Part shown: positions 1,190 through 9,775 of the stretch, one piece after another
Position numbering within the stretch: the stretch's first letter is position 1
How the letters are laid out: each line of letters begins with the position of its first letter
DNA from: Hyphomonadaceae bacterium
GTDB taxonomy: Bacteria; Pseudomonadota; Alphaproteobacteria; Caulobacterales; Hyphomonadaceae
DNA: 64,000 nt
Direction of reading: 5' to 3'
NCBI GenBank assembly: GCA_024742355.1
Contig: JANSYM010000001.1
Coordinates: 186,001-250,000, forward strand
Notes under the pieces: model-generated
Told to the model about the DNA's origin: nothing
Seen by the model: the letters and a program-made list of their open reading frames with translations, nothing else
The model's database searches: none
Translations under genes and position numbers: made by a program

Positions 1190-1317
1190 AAGCGCTCCCC
1201 ACGGAGTTTTCCGTGGGGTCCAACACGAGATCTTGCCGCGAGGACCGGGAGAGATGTTTTCGCTCCCGATCTTCGCAGCATGCTCGGGTGATGGGCTGCC
1301 CAGACCGGGCTGGGCAG
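1190..1317 (+). repeat. three-hairpin structured element, copy 1
   Basis: Hairpin 1 is CCCCACGG 1197-1204 with CCGTGGGG 1211-1218. Hairpin 2 is CGGGAGAGA 1246-1254 with TCGCTCCCG 1260-1268, with one mismatch. Hairpin 3 is CTGCCCAG 1296-1303 with CTGGGCAG 1310-1317. The spacers are 27 and 27 bases. Bases 1220-1229 can pair with 1283-1294 around hairpin 2. A further 8-bp stem follows at 1319-1326 with 1336-1343. A second copy in the opposite orientation lies at 8184-8310. It sits downstream of the leftward thioesterase gene and codes for nothing convincing. Confidence 0.8.
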
Positions 1318-1381
1318 ACCGTCGACGAGAGGGTGGTCGACGGGAAATCTCCCCTCCTGACCCAAAGCAGACCCCAAGCCT

Positions 1382-7289: not shown

Positions 7290-8147
7290 ATGTCAGACGA
7301 ACCTACAGAAACGCCAGAAGAGGCGACGCCACAGGAAGATGTCACCAAGGCCTGGCAGGCCACTCAGGACCAGAAATCCAAGGCGGGGCGCCTGCGCCTG
7401 TTTGCAGCCATTGCCTGGGTCATCGCCATTGGCGGCGAAATCGCGGGCATTGTCATGCTGCTTCAGGGGCGGTTCGACACAGGCGGCCTGCCCATCCTGA
7501 TCGGATTGCTGGTCGGTATCGCGGTGTTCGCGATTGCCGGTAGCCTGCTGTGGAAGAATGCCAATAAGCATGACCCGGCCAGCAAGGAAGACGGGTTCAA
7601 ATTCTTCTTCCAGAACCAGCTCGGCGCGATCATCACTTTGATCGCCTTCCTGCCTCTGCTCGCCTTGATCCTGATGGACAAGGACATGGACCCGAAAAAC
7701 AAGCAGATTGCCGGCGGCGTCGGCGCTGTCCTGGCCGTGATCGCAGTCCTGTTCGGGGTCAGCTACAACCCGCCATCGGTTGAGCAATATACTGAGGACA
7801 TGAATGAGTGCGCGCGCCAGATCAATGCTGGCGAAGCGACCACAGCGTGCTCGCCGGAGGTTGCCGAACAGGCGCAGGAAATCGCCCGCGATGCTGAAGC
7901 CGTAGCCGAAGCCACCCGCGACGCCGACAATCCAAATGGCCGCGATGTGGTTTACTGGATCGCGCCGCCGGACGGTGAAAAGCACGACTCACCGCGCGTC
8001 TTCCATCTCTGCGAAGATGTCAGCCCGCTGCGCGACAAGGATGTTGTCAGCGGTTCCGTGGCAGAAGCTTACAAGCAGAACGCGAAGCGCATCACCAAAC
8101 AGCTCAGCATGGAGCAAAACCAGTGCGGCTTTCAGGTCGCTGAGTAG
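7290..8147 (+). CDS. hypothetical four-helix membrane protein
   Basis: This 285-residue protein begins with an acidic cytosolic tail. It has hydrophobic segments near residues 35-58, 66-86, 108-126 and 139-158, then a soluble C-terminal half of about 125 residues containing four Cys (NECARQI, TTACSPEV, HLCEDV, QNQCGF). The Cys set would suit disulphides if that half is periplasmic (inference). ATG 7290 follows GGGGAATTGAACC. I do not recognise the family. It is divergent from the XRE/2TM regulator and ends just before copy 2 of the three-hairpin element. Confidence 0.7.
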   Translation: MSDEPTETPEEATPQEDVTKAWQATQDQKSKAGRLRLFAAIAWVIAIGGEIAGIVMLLQGRFDTGGLPILIGLLVGIAVFAIAGSLLWKNANKHDPASKEDGFKFFFQNQLGAIITLIAFLPLLALILMDKDMDPKNKQIAGGVGAVLAVIAVLFGVSYNPPSVEQYTEDMNECARQINAGEATTACSPEVAEQAQEIARDAEAVAEATRDADNPNGRDVVYWIAPPDGEKHDSPRVFHLCEDVSPLRDKDVVSGSVAEAYKQNAKRITKQLSMEQNQCGFQVAE

Positions 8148-8183
8148 GGACGCATCTGACTGGAGCTTATAATTCGAAACGCT

Positions 8184-8310
8184 CTGCCCAGGTCATCTGG
8201 GCAGTCCAGCACCCGATGGTGCCACAGGAACGGGAGAGATAATGTCTCTCCCGTTCACGTTTTGAAGTACGGGTGATGGGCCCCACGGACCATGCCGTGG
8301 GGAGCGCTTG
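8184..8310 (-). repeat. three-hairpin structured element, copy 2
   Basis: Read on the minus strand this has the same order as copy 1 at 1190. Hairpin 1 is 8281-8288 with 8295-8302 (CCCCACGG/CCGTGGGG). Hairpin 2 is 8231-8239 with 8245-8253, a perfect 9-bp stem. Hairpin 3 is 8184-8191 with 8197-8204 (CTGCCCAG/CTGGGCAG). The spacers are 27 and 26 bases. Bases 8206-8215 can pair with 8270-8279 around hairpin 2. The flanking motif AGCGCTT is shared with copy 1. It fills most of the 210-base gap between two convergent genes and may end transcription of both. Confidence 0.8.
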
Positions 8311-8357: not shown

Positions 8358-9692
8358 TTAAGCCGCCCACGGCCCTGTAATCGCGAGCGTGCGTGTCGGC
8401 GCATAGGCGTTGACGAACATCCATTTTCCGTCTGGTGAGAAACAGGCGCCAGCCGGCTCAGTCTGAACTCTCAACCGGCCGAGATCATAGGCCTCTCCGG
8501 ACGGGGTGATGCCGCGCAGATGGTTGTCGACCACGTCGGTATACTGATCCTCGCAGACGATCAGGTGTCCGTTCGGGGCGACGCAGAGATTGTCGCCATA
8601 ATTGAACTGCTCCTCGCTCTCGCTTTCGAAGAACAATTCGACCGTGTCCGGGCCTTGGCCGCGCCCGGGGACGAGGCGGAAGATCTGCCCCAGTTTCCTG
8701 GCGCCGCCACTGGTGCAGCAGAAATACAGGTCATCGTCGCCCATATGCATGCCCTCGCCGCGCGCAAACACGGCCGCACCTTGCGCCGCGGCGCGCAATC
8801 GCAGGTCATCCTGCGGGGCCTCAACATCGGTGAGGTCGATCCAGCTCACGGTGTAGGACTGGCCGACCGCGACCGTCGCGGCGTCCCAGTTGCGGGTGTC
8901 GGTCACGCCTTCAATGACCATGGCCTGCAGGCGCCCGCCGTCTGCCAGCTTACCCGGCGTGTTGGGCAGGAAGCGATAGATCACGCCCTCATTGCGATCC
9001 TCGGTCTGGTAGACATAACCGGTTTCCGGATCGACACAGGCGGCTTCGTGATTGAACCGGCCCATGGCGCGCAATGGCTTGGCTTCGACCAGGCCTTCGG
9101 CATTGCCAGGTACTTCGAACACCCAGCCATGATTGACCGCGAGGCCATCGCCATAGCGCTGTCCGGGACCGGTCGGGGCTTCCTCGCAGGTCAACCAGCT
9201 GCCCCATGGCGTGACGCCGCCTGAACAGTTGCGAATGGTCCCGCCGAGCGAGCGGAACTGGCGTTTGACCTCGAGTGTTGTGGCATCGAGCACAATACTG
9301 GTCGTGCCACCCGGAACGATCACGCCATTATGCGTGCCGAAGCCGTGCGGGATGTCACCGCCAGACCCGTCCGTCTGGACCAGCTCATGATTGCGGACCA
9401 GAACGATCTCATTATTGCCGAGGTCGAGACAGCCCATGCCGTCAGCCTTGTCCGGAACCGTGCCGCCATCCGACATCGCGTCGCCAAGGCTGGAAATCAG
9501 GCGGTAAGAAAAACCTTCCGGCAGGTCGAGCAATCCGTTCGGATCTGGCAGCAGGGGGCCATAGTCCGAGAACGGCGTGCTTGCGGTCGCCGCGTTCGGG
9601 CCTCGCGCCACGCAGCCGCTGGCGATGAGCGCCGAAAACGCTGTGGCGGTGACAGATAAAAACTCGCGGCGGCTTTGGGTTGGTGCGGTCAT
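8358..9692 (-). CDS. PhoX/DUF839-family Tat-exported lipoprotein
   Basis: From ATG 9692 (ribosome site GAAGGAA) the 444-residue product begins with the twin-arginine motif SRREFL and a hydrophobic segment ending in the lipobox ASGC at Cys 27, so it should be a folded lipoprotein exported by Tat. The rest is a beta-propeller-like DUF839 protein of the PhoX type, with motifs such as VRNHE near residue 98, GGTIRNCSGG, TCEEAPTG, FNHEAACVDPETGYVYQTED and ICEDQYTD near the end. PhoX enzymes are Ca/Fe-dependent phosphatases. Many DUF839 relatives are uncharacterised, so phosphatase activity is possible but unproven. Confidence 0.8.
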   Translation of the reverse strand: MTAPTQSRREFLSVTATAFSALIASGCVARGPNAATASTPFSDYGPLLPDPNGLLDLPEGFSYRLISSLGDAMSDGGTVPDKADGMGCLDLGNNEIVLVRNHELVQTDGSGGDIPHGFGTHNGVIVPGGTTSIVLDATTLEVKRQFRSLGGTIRNCSGGVTPWGSWLTCEEAPTGPGQRYGDGLAVNHGWVFEVPGNAEGLVEAKPLRAMGRFNHEAACVDPETGYVYQTEDRNEGVIYRFLPNTPGKLADGGRLQAMVIEGVTDTRNWDAATVAVGQSYTVSWIDLTDVEAPQDDLRLRAAAQGAAVFARGEGMHMGDDDLYFCCTSGGARKLGQIFRLVPGRGQGPDTVELFFESESEEQFNYGDNLCVAPNGHLIVCEDQYTDVVDNHLRGITPSGEAYDLGRLRVQTEPAGACFSPDGKWMFVNAYAPTRTLAITGPWAA

Positions 9693-9775
9693 CGCTTGTT
9701 CCTTCTCTGGATCGTCTGGTCGGTAGAATAAGCAGGGCTTGAGGCCCGGCATCCAGGTTCAAGTGTGTAACAGAT

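Follow-up and report, generated by a model that had tools for sequence, protein, structure and literature searches.

The three-hairpin sequences described here probably constitute a REP-type miniature repeat, an inverted heterodimer that is REPIN-like, independent of a RAYT, and built around a structured spacer of fixed length. They are a new variant among known repeats, not a new kind of RNA, and what sets them apart is a rigid geometry together with a missing enzyme. Two copies lie in the window (the whole stretch of 64,000 nucleotides analyzed) and many more occur in the same genome and in its congeners, with near-constant spacing, with arms more conserved than spacers, and with a lineage-specific presence that leaves the same sites empty in relatives. 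Throughout, G000 denotes the window's own genome, G009, G020 and other G numbers its congeners, and L numbers the collected loci.

Anatomy and folding of the two copies

An earlier note on this DNA had drawn attention to both copies, and they are present as it described them, stems, spacings and pairings included (Table 1). The two spacers can pair around the central palindrome in each: 1220-1229 with 1283-1294 in copy 1 (with an A:A mismatch and a 2-base bulge) and 8206-8215 with 8270-8279 in copy 2 (with a G:A mismatch). Gene context agrees with the placement of copy 2 between convergent genes. The context of copy 1 is uncertain, since one of its neighbors, the minus-strand frame at 319-783 (no Pfam match), is only a possible gene; the other is a minus-strand thioesterase gene (1382-1849).

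Folding is strong for each strand of each copy, as RNA (z -6.7 to -8.0 against dinucleotide shuffles) and as DNA (z -6.0 to -8.0), with none of 200 shuffles doing as well in any case; two further copies, taken from G020, gave RNA folds with z of -4.8 and -5.9. The best fold of copy 2 is a closed cloverleaf with three arms. On the plus strand of copy 1, where the right tag reads ACCG, the cloverleaf is not closed as it is in copy 2, and of the G020 copies folded, L057 folds best into the cloverleaf and L055 into a form other than the three-hairpin one.

Other palindromic sequences adjoin copy 1. Directly upstream, at 1073-1165, lies a different inverted repeat pair (CCTCATCCTGAGCGAAGTCGAAGGACGAGG ... 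TCCTTCGANTTCGCTCAGGATGAGG) that also precedes many of the G000 and G009 copies, and 1032-1059 holds a hairpin (GGTCCCGGGTCAAGCCCGGGATGG) of a type common in the mosaic DNA there.

Table 1 Features of the two copies in the window and of the genes flanking copy 2 (counts and paired shares refer to the 53 aligned copies)
Feature	Position	Strand	Evidence or remark
Copy 1, left outside tag CGCT	1193..1196	+	CGCT in 47, CGTT in 6 of 53
Copy 1, left REP-type hairpin CCCCACGG/CCGTGGGG	1197..1218	+	Helix cells 99.1% paired; folds
Copy 1, left tail TCCAACAC, inner side of hairpin	1219..1226	+	CCA here in 51/53
Copy 1, central palindrome	1243..1271	+	Alignment; helix cells 83.5% paired, one position mostly mismatched
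Copy 1, right tail GTGATGGG, mirror of left tail	1288..1295	+	Other-strand CCA in 52/53
Copy 1, right REP-type hairpin CTGCCCAG/CTGGGCAG	1296..1317	+	Helix cells 99.3% paired
Copy 1, right outside tag ACCG	1318..1321	+	AGCG in 49/53
Copy 2, left outside tag CGCT (element on minus strand)	8303..8306	-	
Copy 2, left REP-type hairpin CCCCACGG/CCGTGGGG	8281..8302	-	Alignment, folds
Copy 2, left tail CCCATCAC	8273..8280	-	Alignment
Copy 2, central palindrome	8228..8256	-	Alignment, folds
Copy 2, right tail GTGCTGGA	8205..8212	-	Alignment
Copy 2, right REP-type hairpin CTGCCCAG/CTGGGCAG	8184..8204	-	Alignment, folds
Copy 2, right outside tag	8180..8183	-	
Gene convergent onto copy 2, no Pfam match; flank for finding the orthologous site	7290..8147	+	
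Other gene converging on copy 2, of the PhoX-type phosphatase family	8358..9752	-	PF05787, E 3.7e-77

A dispersed family with near-constant geometry

A search of the genome and its relatives for further copies, as the earlier note had advised, does find more. The family consists of repeats of ~125-130 bp dispersed between genes, and 71 places were collected (27 in G000, 20 in G009, 21 in G020 and 3 in others), with at least three more copies in G020 beyond this set (C2:234198, C7:199291 and C2:305394). BLAST (E <= 0.001) located 26 places in the window's own genome, the weakest being copy 2 itself, and gave matches in 7 of 29 genomes of the genus: 26 in G000, 23 in G009, 24 in G020 (these three counts take in pieces and both strands), 2 in G013, and 1 each in G018, G021 and G025. 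Twenty-two of the 29 congeners had no BLAST match to the three-hairpin repeat. Patterns for both ends are matched by 62 of the 71 places, indicating that whole doublets dominate; of the nine others, two are cut by contig ends and the rest are truncated or too divergent. Two G000 places, at the start of contig C4 (L024) and, reversed, at the end of C12 (L023), share 141 identical bases inside the copy and may be one locus or an assembly break, and L025, L027 and L032, which have near-identical flanks and stand at contig ends (C15, C7 and C9), may adjoin an operon present in several copies.

We aligned 53 copies, none of them identical, leaving out nine of the 62 both-end places with a unit length of 152 that stems from a second right-hand hairpin. 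This extra hairpin, followed by AGCA/AGCG-type letters, was seen in L022, L034, L035, L039, L042, L043, L044, L045 and L047, as if the arm had been duplicated. The consensus reads CGCT - CCCCACGG (loop) CCGTGGGG - YCCANCAC - spacer - GATCGGGAGNG (loop) CNCTCCCGATC - spacer - GTGNTGGR - CTGCCCAG (loop) CTGGGCAG - AGCG, in which two tag-hairpin-tail units, inverted relative to each other, enclose a central palindrome and the right-hand unit mirrors the left but has a different stem. Distances between the parts hardly vary among the aligned copies: 27 in 47, 23 in 51, and 27 or 26 in 50.

Mean pairwise identity is 0.90-0.94 in the arms and 0.42-0.57 in the spacers of the 53 copies, a contrast that is partly built in because these copies were picked by BLAST and loose arm patterns. 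Conservation of structure over sequence, which the earlier note had read from the two copies, fails for the family, in which the stems hold the most conserved letters and the spacers are the variable part.

Covariation

The "covarying outer stem" proposed from the two copies is not borne out by the alignment. Pairing is absent at columns 34/108 in 38 of 53 copies and at columns 66/78 in 40 of 52, and columns 62 and 82 are independent; Watson-Crick pairing at 34/108, 38/104 and 66/78 is rarer than in nearly all shuffles of the 53 copies, and pair 30/114 has a weak association (p 0.02) where 62/82 has none. Since the variable positions are either independent or favor mismatch, we regard the outer stem as an inverted repeat of the conserved tail motif, not as a covarying helix. 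At 66/78, 34/108 and 38/104, mismatches are commoner than in shuffles, and their types are mirrored between G000/G009 and G020. These mirrored mismatches led us to consider an inverted centre in G020, and the spacers, judged by eye, fit neither sense cleanly.

Over the whole structure of the 53 copies, 92.0% of cells pair, a share equaled by 467 of 500 shuffles; as high a covariation score came from 87 of the 500, and as many pair types from 169. Two-sided changes do exceed expectation, at 10 pairs (3/500 shuffles) and in 33 cells (13/500), and occur in every helix except the outermost. Related genomes yielded a wider set of 37 stem types of 8-bp arms, in which 89 cells carry two-sided changes versus 26 in shuffles and compensatory change occurs at all eight end-hairpin pairs. 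Arms in this set were required to have the head, the loop pattern and 7 of 8 pairs, and one arm was kept per stem type (37 types from 89); their 97% paired share is therefore partly built in by selection on 7/8 pairs, which does not apply to the variety of stems. Covariation, the test by which the earlier note would have judged its proposal, is thus lacking in the close family, where neither score nor paired share rises above shuffles, and present in the end hairpins of related genomes, in this selected set. A compensatory exchange of A-T for G-C also distinguishes the extra hairpins of L035 and L044, two loci with both flanking genes in common.

Distribution and site turnover

Within the family Hyphomonadaceae, a covariance model built from the 53 copies matched at least 24 of 105 genomes (E <= 0.001), among them at least 19 of 29 in the genus, and at least 4 of 10 genera; in a sample of the order it matched at least 35 of 299 genomes (E <= 0.0001) and at least 11 of 54 genera. 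All of these figures are lower bounds, as at most 32 (family) or 11 (order) candidates per genome were scored, both strands counted. In the 22 loci read in relatives, short doublets (~90-115 bp) predominate that lack a central palindrome and have tails of the GGAGATGG type; in two loci, ~170 bp long, no centre could be made out. Among the loci read, centre-bearing forms occur only within the genus, some of them with other stems (G015, G025). A pattern scan of 84,980 named species returned eight stretches, all from one MAG (Hyphomonadaceae bacterium isolate bin.7), a result that does not prove rarity because the pattern fits only 33 of the 53 aligned copies and the window's own genome was perhaps not included.

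Individual sites differ between relatives. At the copy 2 site, the orthologous gene pair of G009 also flanks a copy (intergenic distances 210 and 195 bp), and the same genes in G015, G016 and G019 stand 69, 75 and 150 bp apart without one; a canonical intrinsic terminator takes its place in G015 and another palindrome pair in G019. At the L033 site, the copy and another repeat pair lie together in an insertion that G000 has and that is missing from all nine relatives read (out of 28 matching the flanking gene). Target duplication was not evident at the two sites compared, their borders being blurred by neighboring repeats, and many copies are embedded in mosaics of other palindrome pairs.

Judged by flanking proteins, G000 and G009 share two places on both flanks and three more on one flank, in matching orientation. 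One orthologous pair is identical at 53 of 56 arm positions, 18 of 22 in the centre and 15 of 33 in the spacers; aligned differently, this pair shows a weaker contrast, with 31/34 and 24/29 in the hairpin units against 7/16 and 10/16 in the spacers. In the second both-flank pair (L035/L044), the units agree at 28/34 and 27/29 and the spacers at 11/16 and 7/16. In L020/L047, a one-flank pair, the right unit (21/30) is no better preserved than spacer 2 (12/16).

Gene context and alternative explanations

Of 62 classified places, 31 lie between convergent genes, 24 between tandem genes (12 with and 12 against) and 7 between divergent genes. The same loci have 32 other gaps >130 bp, which divide into 4 convergent, 15 tandem and 13 divergent; by Fisher's test the difference has p 0.0003 for the convergent class and 0.003 for the divergent. 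Context was taken from a gene caller trained on these loci, with one place overlapping a called gene and eight without a neighbor, and stricter score limits gave 30 convergent, 27 tandem and 4 divergent (n=61) or 27, 28 and 2 (n=57). The convergent setting (31/62 places against 4/32 background gaps) would suit a functional RNA element, located at gene ends and transcribed from either direction, whose fold halts transcription or shields the converging mRNAs at their 3' ends and whose copies are retained for this role, and so would the strong folding of both strands and the intrinsic terminator that replaces copy 2 in G015. We nevertheless consider such an element unlikely. T-rich stretches follow the end hairpins on 0 of 62 right sides and 2 of 62 left sides, and nothing terminator-like was found at copy 2, so that an intrinsic terminator was rejected. 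Presence within the genus is patchy, and REPs in general favor such places, according to the available text of PMC3733652. No Rfam family matched the window at gathering score; twelve matches to copy 1 (E 0.19-7.5) were all far under the cut-offs and were taken as chance. With strong folding on both strands and equally well as DNA, an even split of tandem places (12/12) that gives no strand preference, and no Rfam match, nothing favors RNA over DNA, and the "selected RNA" of the earlier note is left without support.

A DNA-binding array, in which a nucleoid protein or a topoisomerase would bind arms and centre at fixed helical spacing, as has been suggested for gyrase and the REPs of enterobacteria, would fit the 27/23/27(26) spacing, which hardly varies although the spacer letters are free, and the variation of centre and tail positions regardless of pairing. 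Compensatory changes in the end hairpins of relatives point instead to hairpins in folded or extruded form, for which a protein that reads duplex DNA has no need, and congener matches range from 26 to none; we find this explanation rather improbable. Derivation from an ordinary insertion sequence, as a MITE that depends on the transposase of that element for movement, is very improbable: the repeat is indeed a short, dispersed inverted-repeat element with lineage-specific copies, but its two end stems differ and the two sites compared lack an evident target duplication. A longer terminal inverted repeat was rejected, as complementarity does not go beyond CGCT/AGCG: the 10 positions that follow hold 274 pairs, and 267 +/- 8 when shuffled.

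Relation to known repeats

The available text of Di Nocera et al. 2013 (PMC3733652) distinguishes two superfamilies of REPs, GTAG and CGTC, and describes the second as predominant in alpha-proteobacteria, with stems of 8-9 bp, loops mostly of 4-5 bases and CCA tails; its members are mostly head-to-head dimers, often heterodimers, several with structured spacers whose ends are complementary or which contain stem-loops, they have no dedicated transposase, and published REPs favor convergent or unidirectional gene gaps, as here. Our repeat resembles these dimers in its mostly alpha-proteobacterial occurrence, unpaired outer tag, head-to-head heterodimeric build with tags outward, structured spacer and gene-gap setting. 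Its stems are 8 bp in both arms (9 in some), CCA stands in the tails of 51/53 left and 52/53 right arms, and no transposase gene flanked by its units was seen at the 15 Y1 loci scanned, a comparison that covers the Y1 family. Loop length is 5 bases in most G020 copies; in G000 and G009 it is often 6, or 4 where the stem has 9 bp.

Against the published description of the class, as far as it is available, three features differ. The tags are CGCT (47/53) or CGTT (6/53) on the left and CGCT (49/53) on the right instead of CGTC (or TGTC, CCTC); the stems begin with CC and CT in the two arms instead of A-T pairs at positions 1 and 2; and a single central palindrome stands at near-fixed distance from both arms. 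Tags are mixed among 38 arms from the 22 relatives' loci (L084 gave none, and one arm is probably a chance match), with exact CGTC once and shifted forms such as CGTCA twice, and the first stem bases of these arms are CC 16, TC 8, CA 5, TG 4, TT 3, CG 1 and CT 1. Because tag and A-T stem start differ and stem length, CCA tail and head-to-head build match, we describe the repeat as CGTC-like rather than as a member of the class.

REPINs, as presented in the available text of Bertels and Rainey 2011 (PMC3116915), share with our repeat an inverted REP doublet as the unit, conserved ends, hairpins and a less conserved spacer of set length, and the doublet is also the dispersed unit here (62/71 places). 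Unlike REPINs and their RAYTs, it has no GTAG/GTGG foot and no cognate RAYT in the copy-rich genomes. Enterobacterial BIMEs, to judge from what is available of PMC2817692 and PMC6006769, have alternating REP orientation within intergenic mosaics in common with it and a different foot. The proposal in the earlier note of a palindromic mobile unit outside the ordinary REP classes holds in that the repeat is conserved, dispersed and outside the common GTAG class, and goes too far in that it resembles CGTC-tagged REP dimers. Rhizobial RIME (intergenic mosaic elements), which are palindromic, can be likened to it, by description only, as alpha-proteobacterial intergenic repeats. A CGCT-tagged dimer with three hairpins was not described anywhere in the literature searched, which does not prove its absence from print; the available portions of PMC2267715, PMC2817692, PMC12306157 and PMC8049555 hold nothing on a CGCT-tagged repeat.

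Search for a mover

No intact Y1 (RAYT-type) transposase was found in the three copy-rich genomes. Y1_Tnp (PF01797) had no match at E <= 0.1 in G009 (a single contig) or G020, and G000 holds one weak, stop-containing Y1-like frame (14.4 bits, L009 1501-1788); 15 of 25 chosen genomes with model matches had no Y1 match either. Around 15 loci that do have Y1 matches, hairpins with a GTRG foot occur near seven by scan (L009 being doubtful) and near L185 by eye, and hairpins with a TGG foot near four, of which L074, L075 and L180 have 6-7 bp stems far from a pair and L185 has one full unit, the L185 Y1 gene itself adjoining GTAG-type repeats. The foot of the three-hairpin repeat is TGGR; among 214 hairpins (stems >= 8 in the collected loci), GTAG stands directly before the hairpin in none and GTGG in one. 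RAYT-like genes of relatives (L074, L075, L076, L182 and L186) have GGCGGG hairpins with a GTAG foot close by, a separate REP class. With Y1 absent or broken in copy-rich genomes, and the RAYT-like genes of relatives beside GTAG repeats wherever the class can be told, a RAYT was rejected as mover of the CGCT-tagged repeat, which the Y1 searches (the window's own genome, the genus and 25 chosen genomes, with 15 loci scanned) thus leave without an identified transposase of that family.

Proposed mode of dispersal

The unit comprises two short palindromes (CGCT - 8-bp hairpin - YCCA) whose tags face outward and whose distance is fixed by a spacer with a palindrome of its own, and one strand of it can fold into a cloverleaf, as DNA or RNA. 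Like a REPIN or a CGTC-type REP dimer, the whole doublet is probably copied into intergenic DNA, mostly downstream of genes, and tolerated there. Copying may proceed through single-stranded hairpins whose tag, stem and tail are recognized by a trans-acting enzyme, perhaps one that has since been lost, and recognition by this mover, rather than a host function, may be what keeps the arms conserved. Gene conversion or re-insertion could mimic such constraint on the arms, and no transposition event or intermediate was seen.

The simple REPIN model gives no explanation for the centre and the rigid spacing. A speculative extension, which we think unlikely to be correct, is that in this RAYT-less mobility the tagged hairpins and the centre form a single cloverleaf (a four-way junction) in single-stranded or extruded DNA, and that its whole shape is recognized by an enzyme family new to REPs. 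If true, whole-cloverleaf recognition would account for a 27/23/27 geometry that hardly changes while the spacer letters vary freely, and the enzyme could be the missing transposase of the CGTC-type REPs, which figure as an orphan class with no dedicated transposase in the available text of PMC3733652. A dimer family with near-fixed geometry, lineage-specific copies and sites empty in relatives is well suited to a search for that enzyme, since match-free congeners are available for comparison with the genomes from which 20-27 copies were collected.
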